From contig JAIUOK010000012.1 in assembly GCA_020161245.1 (NCBI GenBank), positions 1 to 64,000 on the forward strand: a stretch of DNA of 64,000 nt. Reading direction: 5' to 3'. The DNA is from Actinomycetota bacterium. Its GTDB lineage: Bacteria; Actinomycetota; Actinomycetes; S36-B12; CAIYMF01. Every line of letters starts with the position of its first letter. Positions within the stretch are counted from its first letter, which is position 1. Position numbers and translations under genes: made by a program. The notes under the pieces are model-generated. The model was not told where the DNA came from, ran no database searches, and worked only from the letters and a program-made list of their open reading frames with translations. Positions 3,204 through 15,710 of the stretch are shown piece by piece.

Positions 3204-3833
3204 TCAGACGCCGAGGGTGTTCCGCAGCTCGGCGACGGAGGCGGCGGGGTCGGTGGTGTCGAACCGGAAGGCCTGCAGGCCGGCCGAGCGGGCGCCCTCG
3301 ACGTTGGCGGTGAGGTCGTCGATGAACAGCGTGCGCGCGGGGTCGGCGCCGAGGGCGACCACGGCAGCGGTGTACGACGCCGGGTCGGGCTTGCGCACGC
3401 CGATGTCGAGGGAGTCGACGATGCGCTCGAAGTACTGCTTGTACTCCCAGGTGTCTTTCCAACCGACGCCGAGGAACTTGGTGGCGTCGTTGGTCAGGAC
3501 GGCCTGGCGGTAGCGCTTCGGGATGTCGCCGAGGAGCGCGACGACGACCGGCCGGCCGCGGCCCTCCCAGCCGAGCTCGCGTAGCGCGTCGTAGAGGTGC
3601 AGGCCCGGCACGGTCTTGCGGGCGAGGTCCTCGATGTCGCGCCAGTACTCGGGCTCGTCGCGCTCGCCTGAGTCGACCTTGTCGTACTCGGCGTCGCCCT
3701 CGGGCACGAACGGGCCGCGCGGCAGGGTGCCGCGCGGCATGCCGGTCGCGTCCTCGAGCTCGTCGAAGCGCTCGAACGGGCTCTCGTAGAGCACCTGGCC
3801 GATGTCCCAGAGCACCACGTCGATGTCGGTCAC
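3204..3833 (-). CDS. HAD-superfamily phosphatase, last gene of the lower-pathway operon
   Basis: This 209-residue HAD hydrolase has nucleophile motif I DIGQV (Asp10), motif II LTND, motif III RKPDP and motif IV FIDD, so the phosphotransfer core is complete. The acid two residues after the nucleophile is replaced by Gly, as in DxGxV phosphatases such as YihX, which are active. The GTG start overlaps the Rieske ferredoxin stop by four bases. In a cluster with an aryl-phosphate-forming enzyme, it is a candidate to release phosphate from an aryl phosphate or its oxidised product, much as the HAD protein CreD does in the Corynebacterium p-cresol pathway. Substrate is inferred from context. A paralogue lies at 18056-18703. 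Confidence 0.85.
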   Translation of the reverse strand: MTDIDVVLWDIGQVLYESPFERFDELEDATGMPRGTLPRGPFVPEGDAEYDKVDSGERDEPEYWRDIEDLARKTVPGLHLYDALRELGWEGRGRPVVVALLGDIPKRYRQAVLTNDATKFLGVGWKDTWEYKQYFERIVDSLDIGVRKPDPASYTAAVVALGADPARTLFIDDLTANVEGARSAGLQAFRFDTTDPAASVAELRNTLGV

Positions 3834-4216
3834 GCCGTCTCCGTCCCGGTAGGTCGGCCCTCGCGGGCATGGGCAAGCAGGATCTCGCGCATCGTCAGCA
3901 CCGGCGCGGGATCGGGCACCTCGATCTCGATCTCGTCGCCGACGACGGTCACGGGGTAGGCCGGCAGCGGCTCGCCGAGGGTGTCGACGCGCGACCCGGT
4001 GCGCAGGTCGTACTGCCAGAAGTGCGACGGGCAGGTGACGACGCCGTCGCGCACGACGCCGGTCAGCAGCGACGCCTGCCGGTGGCGGCAGGCGTCCTCG
4101 ACGGCGTACGGGCGGCCCTCGACGAGCGCGACGAGGACGGGGCAGGACGGCGTCTCGACGCGCATCCTGCCCCGCTGCTCCAGCTCCTCGAGCCGGACGC
4201 GGACGACCTGGGCCAT
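3830..4216 (-). CDS. Rieske [2Fe-2S] ferredoxin
   Basis: This 128-residue soluble protein has the Rieske ligands Cys43-x-His45 (ACRHRQASL) and Cys62-x2-His65 (TCPSHFWQYDL). The short length and absence of a mononuclear-iron domain mark it as an electron carrier rather than an oxygenase. Its likely partners are the Rieske oxygenase at 15711-16973 and the FprA-type reductase at 18767-20104, both in the divergent operon, giving a three-component system. The C-terminus extends about 25 residues beyond the usual ferredoxin fold (MREILLAHAREGRP). It overlaps the HAD gene and sits 3 bp after the tautomerase. Confidence 0.9.
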   Translation of the reverse strand: MAQVVRVRLEELEQRGRMRVETPSCPVLVALVEGRPYAVEDACRHRQASLLTGVVRDGVVTCPSHFWQYDLRTGSRVDTLGEPLPAYPVTVVGDEIEIEVPDPAPVLTMREILLAHAREGRPTGTETA

Positions 4217-4219
4217 CCG

Positions 4220-4459
4220 CTACGTGCCCTCGGCGGGGGAGGACGGTCCGTTGGTCGCGTTGGGGTCGGTACCGCGGACGAGGGAGTACGGCTGGCCGCC
4301 GACGCCCCAGTCGTCCGGGCCCACCTCTCGGATGACCACGCGGATGCGGTCGCGCGGGGTGCCGGTCGCCTCGAAGGCGGCCTCGGTGAGCTTGCTGATG
4401 AGCGCGTGCTTCTGCTCGACGGTGCGTCCCTGCACCATCGTGACCTCGATGAGCGGCAT
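4220..4459 (-). CDS. 4-Oxalocrotonate tautomerase family enzyme
   Basis: This 79-residue protein begins MPLIEVTMVQGRTVEQKHAL. Removal of Met leaves the catalytic N-terminal Pro of the family, and the Arg-rich strand RIRVVIREV follows. It interconverts 2-hydroxymuconate and 2-oxo-3-hexenedioate in the oxalocrotonate branch of meta-cleavage pathways. The C-terminal tail after about residue 62 is longer than the 62-residue XylH/DmpI type. A Shine-Dalgarno stretch AGGAAGGGACC precedes the start. It lies between a hydratase/decarboxylase gene and the Rieske ferredoxin. Confidence 0.92.
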   Translation of the reverse strand: MPLIEVTMVQGRTVEQKHALISKLTEAAFEATGTPRDRIRVVIREVGPDDWGVGGQPYSLVRGTDPNATNGPSSPAEGT

Positions 4460-4506
4460 GGTCCCTTCCTAGTCCTGGGCCCGCGCGGGGCCTGCAGTCG
4501 TTCGCC

Positions 4507-5280
4507 TCACCGGAACGCCACCTCGAGGCTGCCGAGCCGGTCGAACCGGGCGACGACCGTGTCGCCCGGAGCGACGGCGACAGCCTCCGTCATGCCGCCG
4601 GCCATGACGACGTGCCCGGCCTCCAGCCCCTTGCCGCGGGCGGCCAGCGTGCGCACCAGCCAGGCGACGGCCGCGGCCGGGTGGCCCATGACGGACGCGC
4701 CAGCGGCGGTGTGGGCGAGCTCGCCGTTCTTCTCCAGCACGCAGCCGGTGAGGCGCAGGTCGATGCCGTAGGGGTCGATGGCCGTGCCGCCGAGGATGAA
4801 GCCCGCCGACGACGCGTTATCGGCCACGACGTCGTTGAACGTGAAGCGGTAGCCGGCGTAGCGGGAGTCGAGGACGTCGAGCGCGCCGAAGCACGCCTCG
4901 GTGGCGGCGAGCACGTGCGACGCCGTGATGTGCGGCCCTTCGAGGTCGCGGCCGAGCAGGAAGGCGATCTCGGGCTCGACCCGCGGCTGGATGTAGTCGC
5001 CGCACACGACGGTCTGGCCGGTGTCGATCTGCATGTCGTCGGTGAGCCACCCGTAGAGCGGCCGGTCGACCTTCATCTGCACCTGCTTGGCGCGGCTGGT
5101 GAGGCCGAGCTTGGCCCCCACCAGCCGGGCGCCGCCGTCGATGCGGGCCTGGACGACGGCGTCCTGCACCTCGAGCGCCGTGGGCTCGTCGAGCTCCTGC
5201 TCGTCGCTGAGCGGCGCGATGCCGGTGCGGTCGCGGACGGCCGCGAGCAGCTTCTCGGCGAACGGGCCGGGGCCGGTCAC
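4507..5280 (-). CDS. 2-Oxopent-4-enoate hydratase / 4-oxalocrotonate decarboxylase family, paralogue 1
   Basis: This 257-residue protein belongs to the family containing 2-hydroxypenta-2,4-dienoate hydratase (DmpE/MhpD) and 4-oxalocrotonate decarboxylase (DmpH/XylI). The divalent-metal motif is PRVEPEIAFLLG, with VGAKLGLTS as the substrate-pocket segment. The GTG start is set by its four-base overlap with the aldolase stop. The two activities cannot be separated reliably by eye. Because the cluster has a tautomerase and three such paralogues, one is expected to be the decarboxylase and another the hydratase; adjacency to the tautomerase makes this one a reasonable decarboxylase candidate. Confidence 0.88.
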   Translation of the reverse strand: MTGPGPFAEKLLAAVRDRTGIAPLSDEQELDEPTALEVQDAVVQARIDGGARLVGAKLGLTSRAKQVQMKVDRPLYGWLTDDMQIDTGQTVVCGDYIQPRVEPEIAFLLGRDLEGPHITASHVLAATEACFGALDVLDSRYAGYRFTFNDVVADNASSAGFILGGTAIDPYGIDLRLTGCVLEKNGELAHTAAGASVMGHPAAAVAWLVRTLAARGKGLEAGHVVMAGGMTEAVAVAPGDTVVARFDRLGSLEVAFR

Positions 5281-6341
5281 GGGGCGGCCTCGCGCTCGGC
5301 GTGACGGCGGGCGAGGTCGACCGCGACGTCGATGATCATGTCCTCCTGGCCGCCGACCATCTTGCGCCGGCCGAGCTCGATGAGGATGTCGGCCTCCGGC
5401 ACCCCGTACCGCTCGGCGGCCTTCTTGGCGTGCAGCAGGAACGAGCTGTAGACGCCGGAGTAGCCGAGCAGCAGGCCGGCCCGGTCGATGATCTGCTGGC
5501 GCGGCATGAGCGGCCGGGTGATGTCCTCGGCGACGTCCATGAGCGCGAGCGGGTCGACGCCGCTGGCGATGCCTTCGCGCTCGCACACCGCGGCGAGGAT
5601 CTCGGTGGGGCAGTTGCCCGCGCCGGCACCGAGGCCCGCGCTGGTGCCGTCGAGGTTGCGTGCACCTTCCTCGTAGGCCGCGATTGAGTTCGCGACCGCG
5701 AGGGAGAGGTTCTGGTGGGCGTGCACGCCGAGAGGCACATCGATGCGGCTCACGACCTCGGCGACGCGGGCCCGTACGGCGTTGGTGGTGAGGGCTCCTG
5801 CGGAGTCGGCGAAGTAGACCGTGTCGGCGCCGTAGGACTCGAGCAGCTTCGCCTGCTCGGCGAGCCCCTCGGGGGAGTTCATGTGCGCCATCATGAGGAA
5901 GCCGACGGCCTCCATGCCGAGGTCCTTGGCCATCTTGATGTGCTGCTCGGTGATGTCGGCCTCGGTGCAGTGCACCGCGATGCGGGCCACGCCGACGCCG
6001 AGGTCGCGCACCTTCTTCAGCTCGTCGACGGTGCCGATGCCGGGAACGAGCAGCACCGCGATCTGGGCGTTCGTCGTCGCCTCGACGGCAGCGGCGACGA
6101 GCTGCATCTCGTCGACCTTGCTGAACCCGTAGTTGAACGACGAGCCGCCGAGGCCGTCGCCGTGCGACACCTCGATCACCTGCACGCCTGCGGCGTCGAG
6201 GCCCTTGACGATCGCCACGACCTGGTCGACGTCGTATTGGTGGGAGATCGCGTGCGAACCGTCGCGCAGCGTGGAGTCGATGAGCCGGAAATCCCGCTTC
6301 ACCTCGGTGCCGGATGCGGGCTGCTCGACGACGGCGGTCAT
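5277..6341 (-). CDS. 4-Hydroxy-2-oxovalerate aldolase
   Basis: This 354-residue class II aldolase of the DmpG/BphI/HsaF family splits 4-hydroxy-2-oxovalerate into pyruvate and acetaldehyde. [10 protein letters not shown] near residue 22 supplies the catalytic Arg-Asp pair, and [13 protein letters not shown] supplies the two metal-binding His. The C-terminal communication domain that channels acetaldehyde to the dehydrogenase is present. The ATG at 6341 overlaps the dehydrogenase stop (ATGA), the usual arrangement for the complex-forming partners. A short N-terminal tail ([16 protein letters not shown]) precedes the barrel. Confidence 0.97.
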
Positions 6342-7258
6342 GCCATCACCTCCTGGGTGCTGGCGGCGCGGTGGTGCGCGATGGCCTCGCCGACGCGCAG
6401 CGCGGCGGCGGTCATGATGTCGAGGTTGCCGGCGTAGGTCGGCAGGTAGTCGCCGGCGCCCTCCACCTCGAGGAGGACCACCACGCGGTGCGGCACGACG
6501 CCGCCCGGGGTGTGGAAGGGGCCCTCCTCGATGAGGGGCACGCTCTTGAGCCGGTAGCCGGGCACGTAAGCCGCGACGCTCGCCACCATCTCCTCGACGG
6601 AGTCGATGACGGCCTGGTGATCGGTGCCCTCCGGCAGACCGCAGAACACGGTGTTGCGCATGAGGATCGGCGGCTCGGCGGGGTTGAGCACGATGATCGC
6701 CTTGCCGATCTCGGCGCCGCCGATCTCCTCGAGCGCGCGCGAGGTCGTGCGGGTGAACTCGTCGATGTTCTGGCGCGTGCCGGGGCCCGCGGACTTCGAC
6801 GACACCGACGACACCATCTCGGCGTAGGGGACCCGGGTCACCCGGCTGACCGCAGCGACCATCGGCGTGGTCGCCTGGCCGCCGCACGTCACCATGTTGA
6901 CGTTGGGGGCATCGAGGTGGGCGCCGAGGTTCACCGGCGGGATCACCTTCGGGCCGATGGCCGCGGGCGTGAGGTCGACGGCGGTGATGCCGAGGCCCTG
7001 CAGCACCTCGTTGTGCTTGCGGTGCACATAGGCGCTCGTGGCGTCGAAGACGATCTTCACGGCGTCGGGGTTCTCGGCCACCCAGTCGATGCCGTTGTGC
7101 GGCGCCTCGTAGCCGCGGTCGCGGGCGCGGCGCAGGCCGTCGCTCGCAGGGTCGATGCCGATGAGCGCCACGAGGTCGAGCACGTCGGAGCGCTCAAGCT
7201 TGTACATCAGGTCGGTGCCGATGTTGCCCGACCCGATGATGGCGACGGGGAGTCCCAC
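6338..7258 (-). CDS. Acetaldehyde dehydrogenase (acylating)
   Basis: This 306-residue NAD-dependent enzyme converts acetaldehyde plus CoA to acetyl-CoA and forms a channelling complex with the aldolase. The Rossmann motif GSGNIGTD lies near the N-terminus and the catalytic Cys is Cys125 in [12 protein letters not shown]. Length matches the DmpF/BphJ family. The GTG start at 7258 is favoured by the purine-rich AGAAGAGGCGG upstream and by starting directly at the nucleotide-binding strand. It is followed by the aldolase with a four-base overlap, and a 26-bp gap separates it from the hydratase gene upstream. Confidence 0.97.
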
Positions 7259-7284
7259 GGGATCCGCCTCTTCTCTGGTGGTGT

Positions 7285-8073
7285 TCAGACGATCCGGACT
7301 GTCACGGGGCCGAGCCGGTCGAACTCGGCGCGGTAGGTCTCGCCCGCCTGCACGGGCACGGCGGCGTGGAGGGCGCCGGTCATGACGACGGAGCCGGCCT
7401 TGAGCGAGTCGCCGAGGCCGTGGAGCGTGCGGACGAGCCAGGCGACGGCGGCGGCGGGGTCGCCGAGCGCGGCTGCCCCGGCCCCGGTGGCCACGACGTC
7501 GCCGTCGCGGGTGAAGACCATGCCGATGAGGCGCAGGTCGACGTCGGTCACCGGGACGGCGCGGCCCGAGAGCACGATCGCCCCGGAGCTGGCCATGTCC
7601 GCGACGGTGTCGGGGAGCTTGATCTTCCAGTCGGCCACGCGCGAGTCGACGAGCTCCTGCGCCGCGACCACGCCCTCGGTGGCCCGCAGGACGTCGAGCG
7701 GGGTGCAGCGCGGCCCGGAGAGGTCCTCGCCGAGCACCAGCGCGATCTCGGCCTCGAGCTTGGGGGAGATGTAGTCGGTCGCGGCAACGGCGGCGCCGTC
7801 GATGTTCACGTGGCTGGCCATCACCGGTGCGAAGTCCGGCGACCCGACGCCGAGCATCTCCTGCATCGGCTTGCTGGTGAGGCCGAGCTTGTAGCCGACG
7901 ATCGAGTCTCCGTCCTCGAGGTAGCGGCGCACGATGCCCTGCTGCACCAGGTAGCCGTCCTCCATCGTCAGCGAGGGGTCGGCGTCGGTGAGGGGCGGGA
8001 TCGGCTCGCGGGTGAGGCGGGCCTGGTAGAGCGCGGCGGCGAGCTCGTCGGCGCGCTCCGGGCTGATCGTCAT
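7285..8073 (-). CDS. 2-Oxopent-4-enoate hydratase / 4-oxalocrotonate decarboxylase family, paralogue 2
   Basis: This 262-residue enzyme has the segment VGYKLGLTS, the metal motif [12 protein letters not shown] and [22 protein letters not shown]. It acts in the lower meta-cleavage pathway, adding water to 2-hydroxypenta-2,4-dienoate or decarboxylating oxalocrotonate. The ATG at 8073 overlaps the IclR stop (ATGA). In the metal motif, Ala replaces the Pro found in paralogues 1 and 3 (LEAEI versus VEPEI), so it may be the functionally distinct member. Position directly before the dehydrogenase-aldolase pair favours a hydratase role, but this is inference. Confidence 0.88.
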
Positions 8074-8912
8074 CGGTTCCCTCCCTGGCGGGCGGCCCCG
8101 CCTGCTCGTCCGGCGGCCGGCTCCTGCCAGCCGAGCCGGCGGCTGATGGCGGCCGCGGCCTCGACCGCGTGCCGGGTGAAGCGGCGCAGGTTGGCGCCGT
8201 CGAGGCGCTGCACCGGGCCGGCGACCGAGAGCGCGGCGACGACCTGGCCGCGTGCATCGCGCACGGGTGCGGCCACCGAGGCGACGCCGATCTCGGACTC
8301 GTTGACGTTCTCCGCCCACCCCTGCACCCGCACCTGCGCCAGCTGGCGGCGCAGCGACTCGTGGTCGCCGATCGTGTAGGGCGTCTTCCGGGGCAGCCGC
8401 CACCCGAGCAGGATCTCGTCGAGCTCGGCGGGGGGCAGGTAGGCGAGCAGAACCTTGCCGGTCGAGGTGGAGTGCGCGTCGTTGCGGTGGCCCACGCGGC
8501 CGAACAGGCGGATGGTCTGCGGGCTCTCGCGCCGCTCGACGTAGACGACGTGGCGGCCGTCGAGCACGGCGACCTGCACGGTCTCCTTGGTCATGTTCCG
8601 CAGCTGGTCGATGACTGGGCTCGCAGCGCTGTGCAGGTCGTGGGCGGACTGCACGCTCGCGCCGAGCTCGTGCATGGTGAGCGAGAGGCGGTACATGCCG
8701 GTCTCGGCGTCCTGCTCGAGCAGCCGCTCGACGGTGAGCGTGTGCAGCAGCCGGTGGGTGGTGCTCTTGCCGATCCCGAGCCGGCGCGAGAGCTCGCTGA
8801 CGCCGATCTCCCGGTCGCCTTTCCCGAACTCCTTGAGCAGGCGGGCGGCGTTGGACACGCTGGCGAGCACCTGGGTGTCGCCGACGGGGCGCAGCTCCCG
8901 GGGCTGGGTCAT
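8070..8912 (-). CDS. IclR-family transcriptional regulator of the catabolic cluster
   Basis: This 280-residue regulator has an N-terminal winged helix-turn-helix ([20 protein letters not shown], about residues 37-56) and a C-terminal IclR effector domain with the typical [12 protein letters not shown] segment. IclR proteins commonly control aromatic degradation and bind aromatic acids or phenols. The ATG at 8912 overlaps the stop of the upstream gene. A 15-bp inverted repeat in the divergent promoter region (9634-9648) is its likely operator. Whether it activates or represses cannot be read from sequence; being second in the operon, it probably autoregulates. Confidence 0.93.
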
Positions 8913-9595
8913 CGCGGGCTCCCTGCGGGGTTGCGCACGGCCGCCAGCAGCGCCTGGCGGACGGCGGTGTCGTCGGCGCCGGCGTCGGCGCACACCTCGG
9001 CGACGCGCTCGTCGCGCGGCGCGATCTCCTGCGCCAGCAGCCGCATCGCCCGGTGCATCCCGAGCCGCTCGGCCAGGGCGAGCTCGTCGGCGAGCGCGGC
9101 CTTCGAGCCTGCGAGCGACCGGATGGTCTCGTGGTCGCGGTGCGACGCGGCGTGCTGGTTGGCCAGGGCGGTGCCGGCGTGCTGCGCGTGGTGGGCCGAG
9201 AGCCCGCCGCCGGGGGAGACCGAGAGGTGGTACACCACCTCGCCCACCCCGAGCACGCGCCGCACCTCGGCCGAGGCCGGCCCCTCGGACTCGTCGAGCA
9301 GACCGAGCGAGGGCACGACGACGGGGTCGAAGAAGCGCACGGTCCAGCGCAGGCCCGGCATCTCGCCGGCGATCTCCACCTCCGGGCCCTGCGGCACGGG
9401 AAGGCGGTCAGGGGTCGCCAGCACGTGCAGGTGGCGCACGCCGACGGCGAGCACGGTCACCTCGCCGGCGCGCACGAGCGGCAGCGCTGCCTGCTCGCCG
9501 ACCGGCAGCAGCCGGGCCTGGTCGAGGTACGCGCGGTGGAGGTGGGCGACGAAGGCGGCCATCGCATCGCGGAGCTGCCCGGGGTCGGCCGTCAT
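8909..9595 (-). CDS. Unknown protein, first gene of the lower-pathway operon, His-rich segment
   Basis: I do not recognise this 228-residue soluble protein. Its N-terminal half has beta-rich stretches (EVTVLAVGVRHLHVLATP) and mentions no known motif. The C-terminal half contains seven His in 22 residues (AHHAQHAGTALANQHAAS and following RDH), then long helices ending in ALLAAVRNPAG. The His cluster could bind metal. It is the promoter-proximal gene of the leftward operon and is coupled to the IclR gene by a four-base overlap, so it is probably a pathway protein (accessory enzyme or sensor). The ATG at 9595 lies seven bases after a TAGCGT hexamer, suggesting leaderless translation; upstream extension would enter the operator. 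Confidence 0.75.
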   Translation of the reverse strand: MTADPGQLRDAMAAFVAHLHRAYLDQARLLPVGEQAALPLVRAGEVTVLAVGVRHLHVLATPDRLPVPQGPEVEIAGEMPGLRWTVRFFDPVVVPSLGLLDESEGPASAEVRRVLGVGEVVYHLSVSPGGGLSAHHAQHAGTALANQHAASHRDHETIRSLAGSKAALADELALAERLGMHRAMRLLAQEIAPRDERVAEVCADAGADDTAVRQALLAAVRNPAGSPR

Positions 9596-9602
9596 GGATC
9601 GG

Positions 9603-9608
9603 ACGCTA
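9603..9608 (-). promoter_or_regulatory. -10 element of the leftward catabolic operon (leaderless)
   Basis: TAGCGT on the minus strand ends seven bases before the ATG at 9595. With no Shine-Dalgarno sequence, transcription probably starts at or next to the start codon. Confidence 0.5.
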
Positions 9609-9633
9609 CGCCGAACGCGTCCCGCATGGGGGG

Positions 9634-9648
9634 ACATCGGTCCGATGT
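9634..9648. promoter_or_regulatory. Candidate IclR operator between the divergent operons
   Basis: ACATCGG and CCGATGT are perfect inverted arms around a single T. Outer bases also show partial symmetry (CCCGCA at 9621-9626 against TGCGGG at 9648-9653). The repeat lies between the two inferred -10 boxes (9603-9608 and 9665-9670), about where both -35 regions should be, so a bound dimer could act on both promoters. The IclR gene is second in the leftward operon. Confidence 0.55.
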
Positions 9649-9664
9649 GCGGGACAGCCAGTCC

Positions 9665-9670
9665 TACCTT
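9665..9670 (+). promoter_or_regulatory. -10 element of the rightward catabolic operon (leaderless)
   Basis: TACCTT ends seven bases before the ATG of the first extradiol dioxygenase at 9678, with no ribosome-binding site between, the same geometry as the opposite promoter. Confidence 0.5.
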
Positions 9671-9677
9671 CCCGGTT

Positions 9678-10586
9678 ATGGGAGTCCTCCGGCTGAGCCA
9701 CGTGGATGTGACCGTCACCGACCTCGACCTCGCCACGGCGTACTACACCGAGGTCATGGGGATGCTCGTCGTCGAGCGCGACGCCGAGTCCGTCTACCTC
9801 AAGTGCTGGGACGAGGTCGACCACCACTCGCTGCGCCTGGTCTACGCGCCGCGGGTGGGCTTCGACCTCATGAGCTTCAAGGTCGAGCGCGACGACGACC
9901 TGTCCGAGCTCGAGAACGCTGTCACCCGCTACGGCTTCCCCGTGCAGCGGGTGAGCAAGGGGGAGTCGATCGGCCAGGGCGAGTCGATCCGCTTCTCGAC
10001 GCCGTCCGGCCATGTGATGGAGCTCGTGCACGACGTCGAGAAGGTCGGCGGCGCGCTGCCGAAGATCAACCCGGCGCCGTTCGTGCCAGGCCTGTCCGGC
10101 ATCGCGCCCCCGCGCATGGACCACCTGCTGGTCACTGCGGAGGAGGTCGGCGAGGCGACGACGTTCTACACCAACGTCCTCGGGTTCCGGGTCACCGAGC
10201 AGATGCTCGACGGCAACGGGCACCAGATCGGCACGTGGATGGAGCGGTCGCACTCGCCGCACGACCTCGCCGTCGTCGCCGGGCCGAACGGCGGCCTGCA
10301 CCACTTCGCCTACTGGCTCGACGACTGGGAGGCCGTGCGCAAGGCGGCCGACACGCTCGCCTACAACGGCATCCAGATCGACATCGGCCCGACGCGCCAC
10401 GGCGTCACCCGCGGCAGCACGATCTACTTCTTCGACCCGCTGGGCACCCGCAACGAGGTGTTCACCGGCGGCTACCGCCCCGACCCCGACTTCCCCACGA
10501 TCACCTGGACCGAGGACAACATCGGCCGCGCCGTCTTCTACTACGAGGGCGAGCTCAACGACCGCTTCATGAAGGTGCACACCTGA
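9678..10586 (+). CDS. Extradiol ring-cleavage dioxygenase (catechol 2,3-dioxygenase type), copy 1
   Basis: This 302-residue two-domain VOC protein cleaves catecholic rings next to the hydroxyl pair. Iron ligands are visible at His149 (MDHLLV), His208 (GGLHHF) and Glu260 (TRNEVF). Second-sphere catalytic residues His195, His241 and Tyr250 sit at spacings matching XylE. IYFFDPLGTRNE fits the extradiol signature. LKCWDEVDHHSLRL in domain 1 resembles catechol 2,3-dioxygenases more than biphenyldiol enzymes. It opens the rightward operon and is followed by a close paralogue with a one-base stop-start overlap. The exact catechol is unknown. Confidence 0.93.
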   Translation: MGVLRLSHVDVTVTDLDLATAYYTEVMGMLVVERDAESVYLKCWDEVDHHSLRLVYAPRVGFDLMSFKVERDDDLSELENAVTRYGFPVQRVSKGESIGQGESIRFSTPSGHVMELVHDVEKVGGALPKINPAPFVPGLSGIAPPRMDHLLVTAEEVGEATTFYTNVLGFRVTEQMLDGNGHQIGTWMERSHSPHDLAVVAGPNGGLHHFAYWLDDWEAVRKAADTLAYNGIQIDIGPTRHGVTRGSTIYFFDPLGTRNEVFTGGYRPDPDFPTITWTEDNIGRAVFYYEGELNDRFMKVHT

Positions 10587-11497
10587 TGAGCATCCTGCGC
10601 CTCTCCCACGTCGAGGTCCGCGTGCCCGACCTCGAGCTGGCCACGGCCTACTACTGCGAGGTCGTCGGCCTCATCGAGACCGCCCGCGAGCCGGGTCGCG
10701 TCTTCCTCAAGTGCTGGGACGAGCACCAGCACCACTCGACCGTGCTCACCTTCGAGCCCACCCACGGCCTCAACCACTTCGGCTTCAAGGTCACCGAGCG
10801 CGAGGACCTCGACGAGTACGCCGGGCGGCTCAAGGAGGCCGGCATCGACGTCGTGCGCTACGCGGCCGGCGAGTGGGGCCCGGGCCACGGCGAGTCGATC
10901 CGCTTCACGCTGCCGAGCGGCCACTCGATGGAGCTGGTCCACGGCATGCAGCAGATCGGCAACCTGCTCCCGCTCACCAACCCGCCGCCCAAGCCGATGG
11001 GCCTGGTCGGCATCGCGCCCCCGCGCATCGACCACCTGTTCCTCACGGCCGAGGACGTCGGCGCGATGACCGACTTCTTCGTCGACGTGCTCGACTTCCG
11101 CGTCACCGAGCAGGTCGTCGGCGACGACGGCTTCCGCATCGCGACGTGGCTCGAGGTCTCGCACGCCAGCCACGACATCGCCCTGGTCACCGGCCCCAAC
11201 GGCGGGCTGCACCACTTCGCGTGGGCGGTCGAGGACTGGACCGCCATCCGCGACGCCGCCGACGCCTGCGCCTACCACGGCGTCCGGGTCGAGAAGAACC
11301 CCACGCGCCACGGCGCCACGCGCGGGCACTGCCTGTACTTCTTCGACCCCGTGGGCAACCGCAACGAGGTCTTCACCGGCGGCTACTGGGTCGACCCCGA
11401 CAGCGAGCCGACCGTCTGGACGGAGGCCGAGATGGGCCGAGCGCTGTTCTGGTACGACGGCGTCGTCGACCAGAAGTTCCTGACGGTGCACACGTGA
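10586..11497 (+). CDS. Extradiol ring-cleavage dioxygenase (catechol 2,3-dioxygenase type), copy 2
   Basis: This 303-residue paralogue of the preceding gene keeps all the iron ligands (His150, His209, Glu261) and the second-sphere His242 and Tyr251, so both copies should be active. The two differ most around residues 52-100, where domain 1 packs on the active site, and in the linker near 130-140. Tandem type I extradiol enzymes usually differ in substrate range or form a heteromer. Its ATG overlaps the previous stop by one base (TGATG), and its own stop overlaps the phosphatase start by four. Confidence 0.93.
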   Translation: MSILRLSHVEVRVPDLELATAYYCEVVGLIETAREPGRVFLKCWDEHQHHSTVLTFEPTHGLNHFGFKVTEREDLDEYAGRLKEAGIDVVRYAAGEWGPGHGESIRFTLPSGHSMELVHGMQQIGNLLPLTNPPPKPMGLVGIAPPRIDHLFLTAEDVGAMTDFFVDVLDFRVTEQVVGDDGFRIATWLEVSHASHDIALVTGPNGGLHHFAWAVEDWTAIRDAADACAYHGVRVEKNPTRHGATRGHCLYFFDPVGNRNEVFTGGYWVDPDSEPTVWTEAEMGRALFWYDGVVDQKFLTVHT

Positions 11498-12588
11498 CCG
11501 CCGTCGTGCCGGGCCGCGAGGAGACCACGCGGGCCCCGCTGCCCACCACCGAGCGCCCCGACGCGCCGGCCTACCTCGCGCGCTACCGCGCCCGCGAGGC
11601 GCAGGCCCGCGAGCAGGTCGAGACCGCCGACGACCCGAACGTGCCTCTCTACCTGCGCCGCTTCCGGGAGCGCAAGGAGAGCATCGACCCGTTCCAGAAC
11701 CGCGTCACCACCGAGGACGGCCAGGACCTCGGCACCACGCGCGGCTGGGCGGAGGTCACCCGCACCAAGGAGATCGTCCCCGAGCGCCGCGAGCAGGCGG
11801 CTAAGGCGGTCACGGACGTGTACTTCGTGCGCCACGGCGAGACGCAGGGCTACTCGTCGGAGTCCGGCCTCACCCCGCTCGGCGCGTGGCAGGCCCACCG
11901 CCGCGGGCAGGAGCTGGCCCGCCGCGTCATGAACGGCCACACCGTGCGGATGGCGTGCGCCGACACCAACCGCGCCCGGCAGACGGCCGAGGGCCTGCGC
12001 CGCGGCATGCTCGACGGCATGGAGCTCTTCGGCCGCACGGCGGAGGTGGGCGACATCGTCGCCTACGACGAGTTCCAGAACTTCGGCGTGGCCACGCCCG
12101 AGGGCGTCCGCGACGTCACCTCGGCCTTCCGCCTGTACGCCAAGGAGATCGAGAAGTACGAGCGCCTGTCGATGGGCGAGCGGCCGGGCTGGCTGGTCGA
12201 GATCGACCGGTTCTGGAAGATCCAGCAGGGCGGCGGCGACCCGATCACCCACTGGCTGACGATGCCGCTCATCCACTTCGAGCCGCCCGTGTCGGCCGTG
12301 CGGCGGTTCTGGAAGGGCCTGCTGCGCATCCACACCGAGACGCCCGGCAACTCGGTGGTCGTGGCCACCCACTCCGGCCCGATCCGGGCCTTCGCCACGT
12401 GGGCCATGGGCTACGACCCCGGCGAGCCGTTCAACACCGAGTTCGTGCGCGTGCGCCTGCTCGACGGCGGCGTCACCGCTCTCGTCCTCTACCGCAACCG
12501 CGTGCAGGAGGTCCACGTGCCGGACCTCGCTGCGACGCCGGACTGGTGGCGCACGACCAGCATCGTCAACGACGACGAGGAGGCCTGA
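11494..12588 (+). CDS. Histidine-phosphatase superfamily protein with long N-terminal extension
   Basis: This 364-residue protein has the phosphoglycerate-mutase-like active site: VYFVRHGETQG gives catalytic His114, and VVVATHSGPIRAF supplies the second His. About 105 residues precede the core, rich in Arg and Glu with a YLARYRARE / YLRRFRER repeat-like pattern, which is unusual for the family. The core is also enlarged, with a long insertion before the second His. GTG start with a four-base overlap to the dioxygenase stop. Between extradiol dioxygenase and aryl-kinase genes, it most likely hydrolyses a phosphorylated aromatic intermediate; alternatively it could act on the phosphohistidine of the downstream enzyme. 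Both are inference. Confidence 0.85.
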   Translation: MTAVVPGREETTRAPLPTTERPDAPAYLARYRAREAQAREQVETADDPNVPLYLRRFRERKESIDPFQNRVTTEDGQDLGTTRGWAEVTRTKEIVPERREQAAKAVTDVYFVRHGETQGYSSESGLTPLGAWQAHRRGQELARRVMNGHTVRMACADTNRARQTAEGLRRGMLDGMELFGRTAEVGDIVAYDEFQNFGVATPEGVRDVTSAFRLYAKEIEKYERLSMGERPGWLVEIDRFWKIQQGGGDPITHWLTMPLIHFEPPVSAVRRFWKGLLRIHTETPGNSVVVATHSGPIRAFATWAMGYDPGEPFNTEFVRVRLLDGGVTALVLYRNRVQEVHVPDLAATPDWWRTTSIVNDDEEA

Positions 12589-13682
12589 TGACCACGACCA
12601 TCACCTGGTTCGAGAGCTACTGGGCCGGGATGAAGTCCGAGGTCGGCGGCAAGGCCGCGAGCCTCGGCGAGATGACCGGCGCCGGCCTGCCCGTACCCCC
12701 CGGCTTCGCCGTGACGACGTCGGCCTACCGGCGGGCCCGCGACGAGTCAGACCTCGACGCCCACATCGCCCGGCTGCTGCACGGCCTCGACATCACCGAC
12801 ACCGACATGGTGTCCGAGCGCTGCGCCAAGATCCGCCAGCACATCGCGACGATGCCGATCCCCGAGGGCATCGAGCTGCAGATCCGCGGCGCCTACCTCG
12901 AGCTCGGCGCCAGGTTCGGCATGAAGGACGTGCCGGTCGCGGTTCGGTCGTCGGCGACGTCCGAGGACTCCCCGGACGCCTCGTTCGCCGGGGAGCACGA
13001 CACGTACCTGTGGGTGCGCGGCGCCGAGGACGTCATCGATGCCGTCCGCCGTTGCTGGGCGAGCCTGTTCACCGACCGCGCCACCTGCTACCGGGTCGAG
13101 ATGGGCTACGAGCACCGCAGCGTCGAGATGTGCGTCGTCATCCAGAAGATGGTGCACCCCAAGGCGGCAGGCGTTGCCTTCACGCTCGACCCCACCAACG
13201 GCGACCGCTCGCAGGTGGCCATCGACGCCGCCTGGGGCTTCGGCGAGGGGGTCGTGGCCGGCGAGGTCACGCCGGACAACTACCGCGTCGACAAGGTGAT
13301 GCTCGACATCACCAAGCGCATCGTCAGCGAGAAGACCCACGAGTACGTGCTGACCGACCACGACACGGTCGAGCGGGTCGAGACCCTGCCCGAGCGGGCA
13401 TCCGCACCCTGCCTCACCGACAGCGAGATCAAGGCGATCGCGCGCCTCGCCAAGACCGCGGAGCGGCACTACGGCTGCCCGCAGGACATCGAGTGGGCGG
13501 TCGACGTCGACCTGCCGGAGGGCGACAACATCATCCTCCTCCAGTCGCGGCCCGAGACCGTGTGGAGCAAGAAGGGGCCCATCACCGTGGTGGCGCCCGG
13601 CCAGAAGACCGGCGACTACATGTCGAGCATCGTCTCGACGCTCATGTCGCCGCTGTACACGAAGGGTCCGGACGGTTCCTGA
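12588..13682 (+). CDS. Phenylphosphate synthase-like ATP-grasp subunit (PpsB/CreI-type)
   Basis: This 364-residue protein equals the N-terminal, ATP-binding third of PEP synthase. VGGKAASLGEM (residues 19-29), VAVRSSATSEDSPDASFAG with its phosphate-binding Arg, GVAFTLDP, and DIEWAVD ... LLQSRPET are all present. It lacks the phosphohistidine and PEP-binding domains, which in PEP synthase are on the same chain. In Thauera phenylphosphate synthase and in the Corynebacterium p-cresol kinase CreHI, this domain is a separate subunit that phosphorylates the His of its partner with ATP, releasing AMP and phosphate. The partner gene is next. It overlaps the phosphatase stop by one base. Confidence 0.88.
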   Translation: MTTTITWFESYWAGMKSEVGGKAASLGEMTGAGLPVPPGFAVTTSAYRRARDESDLDAHIARLLHGLDITDTDMVSERCAKIRQHIATMPIPEGIELQIRGAYLELGARFGMKDVPVAVRSSATSEDSPDASFAGEHDTYLWVRGAEDVIDAVRRCWASLFTDRATCYRVEMGYEHRSVEMCVVIQKMVHPKAAGVAFTLDPTNGDRSQVAIDAAWGFGEGVVAGEVTPDNYRVDKVMLDITKRIVSEKTHEYVLTDHDTVERVETLPERASAPCLTDSEIKAIARLAKTAERHYGCPQDIEWAVDVDLPEGDNIILLQSRPETVWSKKGPITVVAPGQKTGDYMSSIVSTLMSPLYTKGPDGS

Positions 13683-13776
13683 CCGGCCGTTCGGCAGCAC
13701 CAGTACGACCCGGGCACGCGCGGCGTGCACGGCCACCCCAGTGAGAACACCCGCAAGGGATCGAGAAGGAGACCGC

Positions 13777-15585
13777 ATGGCTGGGTTCCCGCTGCCGTCG
13801 GAGATCACCACTCCGCCCGGCGCAGAAGGCTGGCAGGAGCTGTACTCGTACTCGTCGACGTGCAGCCCCGCGCGCGCCGCGTACGAGGACTCGATGTTCT
13901 GGTTCCAGGACGGCGTGCACTGGCCCAAGGCCCTGCTCCCGTGGGACGCCTCCCTCATGGAGTTGGCCATCATGTCGCTGTCGCAGTACAACACCCGGCA
14001 CCTGCTCGTGCCGCCGGCGAACGGCATCGACTACCGCATCGTCAACGGCTACACGTACCTGTCGCCGGTGCCGGCCCCCGAGGCCGACATCCCCGCCCGC
14101 GCCGAGCACTTCATGCAGCGCGCCGGCCACTACTTCATGAACTGGAACGAGCTCTACGACAACTGGCTGGTCAAGATCCGCGACCTCGTCAAGGAGATGG
14201 AGGGCATCAGCTTCGAGCCGCTGCCCGACATCGAGCCGCTCGAGGTCGTGACCTCCGGTGCCGGAAAGGGCTCGGGCGGCGACCTGCAGGCCAACTACCT
14301 CAAGCTGCTCACCTGTGCGAGCACCCTGTGGCAGTACCACTTCGAGTTCCTCAACCTCGGCTACGCCGCCTACCTCGACTTCTTCGGGTTCTGCAAGACG
14401 GCGTTCCCGGGCATCTCCGACCTCGCCATCGCCAAGATGGTGGCGGGTGTCGAGGTCGACCTGTTCCGTCCGGACGAGGAGCTCAAGCGCCTGGCCCGGA
14501 TGGCGGTCGACACCGGCATCACCGACGCCTTCAAGCTCGGCGACGTGGAGGGCACCTGCGAGGCCCTGCGCGCCAAGGGCGAGGCGGGCCAGGCCTGGAT
14601 CTCGTCCTTCCAGCAGTCGGCCGAGCCGTGGTTCAACTTCTCGACCGGCTCCGGGTTCTCCAGCCAGGACAAGATCTGGATCGAGCACGTCGAGATCCCG
14701 TTCGACTTCATCAAGGGCTACATCGACAACCTGCAGAAGGGCGACGACATCGCCCGCCCGACCGAGGCCATCTCGGCCGAGCGCGACCGCATCGTCAGCG
14801 AGTACGCCGCCCTGCTGGCGTCGGACGAGGACCGCGAGGCCTTCAACGGCAAGCTCGGCCTGGCCCGCGTGGTGTTCCCGTACGTCGAGAACCACAACTT
14901 CTACGTCGAGCACTGGAGCCACTCGGTCATCTGGCGCAAGATGAAGGACCTCGGCGGCGTCCTGGCCAAGGAGGGCTTCTTCGAGGAGCCCGAGGACATC
15001 TTCTTCATGAAGCGCCACGAGATCCCCGACGCGCTGTTCGACCTGTTCTGCGCGTGGGCCGCGCCGGCCCAGCCCGCGGGCCCGTCGTACTGGCCGCCGA
15101 TCATCGCCAAGCGCAAGTCGATCCACGCGGCGCTCAACCAGTGGAAGCCGACGCCCGCCCTCGGCACGCCGCCGGAGGTCGTCACCGAGCCCTTCACGAT
15201 CATGCTCTGGGGCATCACGTCGGACTCCATCGCCAGCTGGCTCGGCGGCGGGGCGAGCGACGACGGCTCCCTCGGCGGCATGGCGGCGTCGCCCGGCGTC
15301 GAGGAGGGCCTGGCCCGCGTCATCTTCGGGCCGGACCAGATCAACGAGGTGCAGGAGGGCGAGATCCTCGTCGCCCCGCTCACCGCGCCGAGCTGGGCCC
15401 CGATCTTCGGCAAGATCAAGGCCACCGTCACCGACACCGGCGGCATGATGAGCCACGCCGCCATCGTCTGCCGCGAGTACGGGCTGCCGGCTGTCACGGG
15501 CACCGGCTTCGCGACGTCGACCATCAAGACCGGCCAGCGGATCCGCGTCGACGGGTCCAACGGCAAGGTGACGATCCTCGACTGA
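13777..15585 (+). CDS. Phenylphosphate synthase-like phosphohistidine subunit (PpsA/CreH-type)
   Basis: This 602-residue protein ends in a PEP-utilising mobile domain with catalytic His560 in TGGMMSHAAIVCRE. The preceding roughly 480 residues resemble the aryl-substrate domain of phenylphosphate synthase subunit A, not the TIM-barrel PEP domain of PEP synthase, which is absent. The phospho-His would pass phosphate to a phenolic hydroxyl. The aromatic-rich segment FFGFCKTAFPG and following may line the substrate pocket. ATG chosen for the GAGAAGGAG upstream. A 94-bp gap holding a small GC hairpin separates it from the ATP-grasp gene. A rifampicin-phosphotransferase-like activity on another phenol cannot be excluded. 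Confidence 0.87.
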   Translation: MAGFPLPSEITTPPGAEGWQELYSYSSTCSPARAAYEDSMFWFQDGVHWPKALLPWDASLMELAIMSLSQYNTRHLLVPPANGIDYRIVNGYTYLSPVPAPEADIPARAEHFMQRAGHYFMNWNELYDNWLVKIRDLVKEMEGISFEPLPDIEPLEVVTSGAGKGSGGDLQANYLKLLTCASTLWQYHFEFLNLGYAAYLDFFGFCKTAFPGISDLAIAKMVAGVEVDLFRPDEELKRLARMAVDTGITDAFKLGDVEGTCEALRAKGEAGQAWISSFQQSAEPWFNFSTGSGFSSQDKIWIEHVEIPFDFIKGYIDNLQKGDDIARPTEAISAERDRIVSEYAALLASDEDREAFNGKLGLARVVFPYVENHNFYVEHWSHSVIWRKMKDLGGVLAKEGFFEEPEDIFFMKRHEIPDALFDLFCAWAAPAQPAGPSYWPPIIAKRKSIHAALNQWKPTPALGTPPEVVTEPFTIMLWGITSDSIASWLGGGASDDGSLGGMAASPGVEEGLARVIFGPDQINEVQEGEILVAPLTAPSWAPIFGKIKATVTDTGGMMSHAAIVCREYGLPAVTGTGFATSTIKTGQRIRVDGSNGKVTILD

Positions 15586-15618
15586 CGTCGCCGTCCAGCC
15601 AGGCGACGTCGACACGCG

Positions 15619-15655
15619 TCCCGCCGGGAGGTCCGAGAAGGCCCTCCCGGCGGGA
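15619..15655 (+). terminator. Strong hairpin between the aryl-phosphotransferase and Rieske oxygenase genes
   Basis: Two perfect 13-base arms (TCCCGCCGGGAGG and its complement) flank an 11-nt loop, 34 bp after the phosphotransferase stop. No U-tract follows and the Rieske gene starts 55 bp later in the same direction. It may partly terminate, mark an RNA-processing site or protect the upstream message, setting unequal expression of the two halves of the operon. Confidence 0.55.
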
Positions 15656-15710
15656 ACTCCAGGCGACACTCGGACGTAGACCCCCAGCAGAAGCAGGAAA
15701 GAGGACCGCG

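Follow-up and report, generated by a model that had tools for sequence, protein, structure and literature searches.

The divergent locus

The window, that is the whole 64-kb stretch of DNA analysed here, carries two divergent operons that are separated by 82 bases (9596-9677), the leftward one beginning with an ATG at 9595 on the minus strand and the rightward one with an ATG at 9678 on the plus strand. Their genes are the following:

3204-8076, minus strand: rest of the leftward operon, lower meta pathway (FAA_hydrolase, HMGL-like plus DmpG_comm, and HAD recognised by domain; the others from the translation)
8070-8912, minus strand: P0001, IclR-family regulator of 280 aa, with the recognition helix GKSTTHR at residues 48-54
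8909-9595, minus strand: P0003, first gene of the leftward operon, 228 aa, function unassigned, with an apparently leaderless start at 9595
9678-10586, plus strand: P0002, catechol 2,3-dioxygenase, first gene of the rightward operon (TIGR03211, 372 bits, cut-off 320)
10586-15585, plus strand: rest of the rightward operon (second extradiol dioxygenase, histidine-phosphatase-family protein, PEP-synthase-like ATP-binding and PEP-utiliser mobile-domain proteins)

As the preliminary description of this DNA had it, the IclR gene is the second of the leftward operon (8912-8070), where it overlaps the first gene by an ATGA. The remainder of this operon encodes hydratases, an acylating aldehyde dehydrogenase, a DmpG-type aldolase, tautomerase-like and Rieske-like proteins, and a HAD hydrolase. 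On the other side, a split PEP-synthase-like pair and a histidine-phosphatase-family gene are found beside the dioxygenases (12585-15585, plus strand) and suggest, by analogy with the hpe cluster, an aerobic route via aryl phosphates (PMC9618137). When the literature was searched for a close regulator of such an aerobic aryl-phosphate route, the paper on the acetovanillone (hpe) cluster proved to refer to just two putative regulators (PMC9618137). Farther along the rightward gene row, a strong GC hairpin with a 13-bp stem and a fold z-score of -3 lies between the PEP-utiliser and Rieske oxygenase genes (15618-15656); it has no T-run, and was rejected as a second operator, being a hairpin of the RNA type rather than a copy of the tandem motif.

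The product of the first leftward gene, P0003, has no match in Pfam, NCBIfam, PHROGs or PDB sequences. Its AlphaFold2 model is confident (pLDDT 94.7), and comparison of this model with PDB structures gave no clear match (best Z 4.5). The family has at least 31 members, always located beside this IclR gene and the dioxygenase gene in the loci seen, and shares the conserved motif HHAxHAGxGLAxxHA.

A conserved tandem element between the operons

Within the 82 bases, the following features are discussed below:

9603-9608, minus strand: leftward -10 box TAGCGT, 10 nt from the operator edge and 7 nt before the ATG at 9595
9619-9655: predicted IclR operator GTCCCGCATGGGGGGACATCGGTCCGATGTGCGGGAC, 37 bp, composed of two 17-bp sites with centres 20 bp apart
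9619-9635: site 1, GTCCCGCATGGGGGGAC, centre 9627, outer half-site GTCCCGC near-invariant, one mismatch to GTCCCGCNNNGCGGGAC
9634-9648: palindrome ACATCGG-T-CCGATGT of the preliminary description, overlapping both 17-bp sites off-centre, its symmetry not conserved
9639-9655: site 2, GGTCCGATGTGCGGGAC, centre 9647, outer half-site TGCGGGAC near-invariant, inner half degenerate, three mismatches
9665-9670, plus strand: rightward -10 box TACCTT, 9 nt from the operator edge and 7 nt before the ATG at 9678

Searching with the IclR protein returned 27 loci from GTDB genomes, and 60 genomes were searched on the basis of kinship. Every locus with a readable region shows the same gene order, namely IclR, P0003 and the divergent dioxygenase, with IclR proteins that are 49-85% identical. 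Comparison of 28 orthologous intergenic sequences, all non-identical though some are close to each other, revealed a conserved 37-bp element around the palindrome, GTCCCGCAT...GTGCGGGAC (9619-9655). It is kept in 28 of 28 regions, with a length of 37 bp in 27 of them and 38 bp in L041, the most distant locus, where IclR is only 49% identical. The 27 regions with the 37-bp form correspond to 21 distinct 37-mers, whose invariant bases are 2, 4, 5, 7, 14, 16, 17, 21, 24, 30-34, 36 and 37; the inner positions G14, A16, C17, G21 and C24 are thus invariant, and the outer GTCCCGC/GCGGGAC near-invariant. The ungapped consensus across regions reads GTCCCGCATGnGGGnAC-AnC-GTnCTTCCATGCGGGAC. The longest perfect inverted repeat returned by a repeat finder in the region, GTCCCGCA (9619-9626) with TGCGGGAC (9648-9655), corresponds to the two ends of this element and is kept in relatives.

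The element is made of two 17-bp palindromes of the form GTYCC-N7-GGRAC (bases 1-17 and 21-37), and both sites of the window have strong outer and weaker inner halves. The main consensus for IclR regulators, known as group 1, is GKTYCRYW3-4RYGRAMC, and tandem IclR sites are found 18-22 nt apart, mainly 19-21, which agrees with binding of a tetramer (Suvorova and Gelfand, 2021, PMC8222616). The 17-bp palindromes are of this GKTYC...GRAMC type, with a C at the third base that deviates from the consensus T, and their centres at 9627 and 9647 lie 20 nt apart; by its sequence, the predicted operator is a new example of the tandem group-1 operators already described.

Presence of the element follows that of the regulator. 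With R1, a sequence-only model of the element that was built partly from some of the surveyed loci, one strong match was found in the genome of origin (9619-9655, E 2.3e-8), the next best having an E of 0.086. Of the 60 surveyed genomes, the 12 with an IclR ortholog all carry the element at the IclR locus (E <= 7.8e-7), and an R1 match never reaches E 1e-4 in the 48 others. The 17-bp site was also looked for in 12 loci that were retrieved via P0003 elsewhere in the phylum: the summed best score was 140, against a mean of 112 and a maximum of 117 in shuffles. These sequences had been seen beforehand, but the scored pattern was derived from the nearer loci. Perfect or near-perfect 17-bp copies, such as GTCCCGCGGTGCGGGAC and GTCCCGCATGGCGGAAC, occur among the distant loci, and four of the 12 show no excess individually.

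One genome, G009, has lost P0003; the divergent gene is hydratase-like there, and of IclR only a 120-aa frame encoding the DNA-binding domain is left. Upstream of this shortened gene, the 37-bp site is nevertheless preserved, together with a TAGCGT box. This shortened IclR is found on two contigs (L095 2848-3300, C115, and L096, C195), and the place of P0003 is taken by an 11-codon GTG frame (VTTAAVRRGAR*) whose stop overlaps the IclR start as ATGA. A wider regulon was also considered and set aside: a pattern search allowing three mismatches gave 91 matches versus 86 for the reversed control, and R1 has no second strong site, so that the evidence for an IclR regulon in this genome covers one locus only.

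Two -10 boxes and their start codons

The TAGCGT and TACCTT boxes were already recognised in the preliminary description, and each lies exactly 7 nt before its start codon (9595, minus strand, and 9678, plus strand). In Actinobacteria, a TANNNT that precedes the start codon by about 10-12 nt is the signature of leaderless genes, and promoters of M. tuberculosis show no -35 consensus (PMC3160421, PMC3898074). Such a leaderless-type arrangement is present on both sides of the window, with 7 nt between box and ATG. A scan with the sigma-70 consensus found no promoter here, as expected because actinobacterial promoters lack a -35 consensus.

Among the 28 orthologous regions, a TANNNT is found 7-10 nt from the operator edge on the leftward side and 8-10 nt on the rightward side, in 28 of 28 cases each. 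Since the chance of finding a TANNNT within four positions in DNA of high G+C content is only a few percent per locus (an estimate from base composition), the boxes on both sides are real conserved features. On the leftward side, the distance from the box to an in-frame start codon downstream is 6-10 nt in all 28 regions, and the mRNA is apparently leaderless throughout. On the rightward side, the start lies 7 nt after the box only in the clade of the window (L016, L017, L043, L046) and 6 nt after it in the distant L041, so that the mRNA appears to be leaderless in these loci only; the other 23 regions have leaders of 38-78 nt, most with a purine-rich Shine-Dalgarno-like sequence. The rightward mRNA thereby differs among L016-L054, with the positions of operator and -10 box constant. 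Most leftward boxes are extended -10 elements (TGN before TANNNT), the exceptions being the window's clade and L041, and the rightward promoters show neither a recognisable -35 nor an extended -10.

The regulator

P0001 belongs to the IclR family, as indicated by its matches to PF09339 (HTH_IclR; 55.3 bits, cut-off 22, E 5e-15) and PF01614 (IclR_C; 167.3 bits, cut-off 24, E 3e-49). Its best-scoring NCBIfam relative is the PcaR/PcaU/PobR subfamily (TIGR02431), to which it cannot be assigned, with 175.8 bits against a cut-off of 284.75. The recognition helix is highly conserved: across 53 homologs, S50, H53 and R54 are found in 53 and K49 in 51. Such a helix alone is, of course, no proof of specificity.

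Proposed control of both operons

From the sequence comparisons, an IclR-type regulator very probably binds the 37-base site between the operons (9619-9655). Our preferred reading, to which we give a probability of roughly 0.62, is that the region forms a bidirectional promoter containing a single IclR operator (9619-9655), from which a tetramer would repress both operons, its own gene included, until released by a ligand. Two IclR dimers (encoded at 8912-8070) would sit side by side on one face of the DNA as a tetramer, since the centres of the two sites are two helical turns apart. Two dimers are expected on this double site, rather than the single dimer envisaged in the preliminary description; the degenerate inner half of site 2 counts against the preferred reading. 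With +1 placed at the A of both start codons, the operator would extend from -59 to -23 of the rightward start (centre -41) and from -60 to -24 of the leftward start (centre -42); at either promoter it takes in the -35 region and the greater part of the spacer, ending 9-10 nt short of the -10 box. It is because of this coverage that steric repression of both promoters is favoured, the tetramer presumably blocking RNA polymerase at both. Release of IclR would be brought about by an aromatic substrate or intermediate of the encoded pathway, these compounds being the obvious candidates for the ligand, and autoregulation would result from the presence of the IclR gene within the leftward operon.

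The IclR family includes repressors, activators and dual regulators (PMC8222616), and the sign of regulation can for this reason not be read from the site. It is thus possible, although distinctly less probable than repression, that the same regulator on the same operator activates the rightward operon in response to a ligand, or has a dual role in which it activates the catabolic promoter and represses its own, like its PcaU/PobR-type relatives. The subfamily score of P0001, albeit below cut-off, points in this direction, and so does the dyad centre at -41/-42, a position also used by class II activators. Rightward promoters without a clear -35 or TGN would suit activation, and most leftward promoters, with their extended -10 (TGN-TANNNT), would fire alone. 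On the other hand, site 2 extends to -23 of the rightward start and lies partly in the spacer between -35 and -10, a placement typical of steric repression, and the near-symmetric placement of the two promoters does not suggest opposite responses. A missing -35 moreover says little, as actinobacterial promoters generally have no conserved -35 (PMC3898074), and the leftward promoter lacks the TGN in the window's own clade.

Other possible binders and sites

The genome encodes an IclR paralog that is 39% identical to P0001 and has the recognition helix KSTAHR, both proteins sharing KSTxHR. Its gene is part of a second dioxygenase-IclR cluster (L098, G000:C50:38000-45000), where the palindromes GTTCCGTTTTCGGGAAC and GTTCCAGCATCGGGAAC are present upstream of the dioxygenase gene; they are probable operators of the paralog, and are group-1 palindromes of the form GTTCC-N7-GGAAC. 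Given the shared recognition helix and these group-1 palindromes, cross-binding between P0001 and the paralog is possible. A His-to-C contact has been predicted at the third base of the site (PMC8222616), and was considered as a discriminator for this base; it was dropped, as the paralog has the same His yet GTTCC sites. That the 37-bp element is bound by another protein altogether, whether this paralog (G000:C50) or an unrelated regulator, is nevertheless highly improbable: genomes contain up to 13 IclR-like matches and the paralog has the same helix, but presence of the site tracks the P0001 ortholog and not other IclR genes, and the site stays beside the isolated DNA-binding domain in G009.

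The preliminary description placed the operator on the perfect 7-1-7 inverted repeat ACATCGG-T-CCGATGT (9634-9648). The repeat reads as described and has a single exact copy in the 4.29-Mb genome. Repeats of this kind are common in this DNA: the window holds 20 perfect 7-1-7 palindromes, and when the 82 bp are shuffled with their dinucleotides kept, 7% of the shuffles contain a perfect inverted repeat with arms of at least 7 and a loop of at most 8, as do 13% of real stretches of 82 bp. Taken alone, the palindrome is weak evidence for an operator. It corresponds to bases 16-30 of the 37-bp element, and its centre (9641) coincides neither with the conserved dyad (9637) nor with the site centres (9627 and 9647). 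All seven pairs are intact in only two of the 28 regions, the window itself (L043) and L046, five of the seven being intact in at most 9 of 27 regions; in the 12 distant loci, the motif is no commoner than in shuffles (score 99 versus 101.6). The repeat was also said to sit at both -35 regions, which is true of the rightward one (9642-9647 for a 17-nt spacer) and not of the leftward one (9626-9631), which lies outside. Although it is perfect, unique in the genome, overlaps the rightward -35 and resembles the PobR half-site GTCCGAT (motif given in PMC8222616), this 15-bp palindrome is thus very unlikely to be itself the operator, bound by one dimer. What is retained of the preliminary description is a predicted IclR-type operator that lies between two divergent promoters, both apparently leaderless, and could serve to control the two operons, with the difference that this operator is 9619-9655.

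Relation to known systems

At the aceBAK promoter of E. coli, the IclR tetramer site known as box II extends from about -52 to -19, overlaps the -35 and mediates repression. Unlike the site described here, it has an A/T-rich motif, TGGAAATNATTTCCA, and does not serve a divergent pair.

The closest likeness is to the tandem group-1 operators of the IclR family (PMC8222616), which are also 17-bp odd-length GTYCC-N7-GGRAC palindromes, paired at 20 nt from centre to centre, and which precede both an autoregulated IclR gene and a neighbouring operon. In contrast to the published consensus, the third base is C and not T here (GTCCC versus GTTYC), and strong outer half-sites are combined with weak inner ones. 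The PcaU and PobR operators of Acinetobacter share with the present one an IclR-family regulator, a role in aromatic catabolism and more than two half-sites; they are made of three boxes (PMC8222616), instead of four half-sites in two palindromes. In TtgV of Pseudomonas putida (PDB 2XRO), the DNA-contacting residues of the HTH, R47-S48-T49-x-Q51-R52, align with K49-S50-T51-x-H53-R54 of P0001, with Q51 where P0001 has H; TtgV differs in controlling an efflux pump, and the sequence similarity is weak. Comparable too is PheR of Sphingobium, a member of the IclR family that represses an operon for aromatic degradation and protects a single long stretch of 44 bp, but its footprint extends from -21 to +23 with a GCAACG core, and no divergent pair of leaderless promoters was described (PMC13273656). 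A literature search, in which many journals fell outside coverage, found no described close relative.

Implications

A broader interpretation, which we regard as rather unlikely, is that the locus represents an actinobacterial regulon not described before and conserved across several parts of the phylum, in which an IclR tetramer would shut two leaderless promoters from a symmetric 37-bp operator, and in which P0003, an obligate partner of no known family, would feed back on IclR or on the dioxygenase. In practical terms, the eye-catching palindrome at 9634-9648 is the wrong target for mutagenesis. The promoter can be traced through relatives as the rightward mRNA switches between leadered and apparently leaderless forms, which makes it a clean case for studying the origin of leaderless genes. 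Finally, the 37-bp element provides an exact and testable predicted operator for a widespread and apparently uncharacterised aromatic-catabolism cluster of Actinobacteriota.
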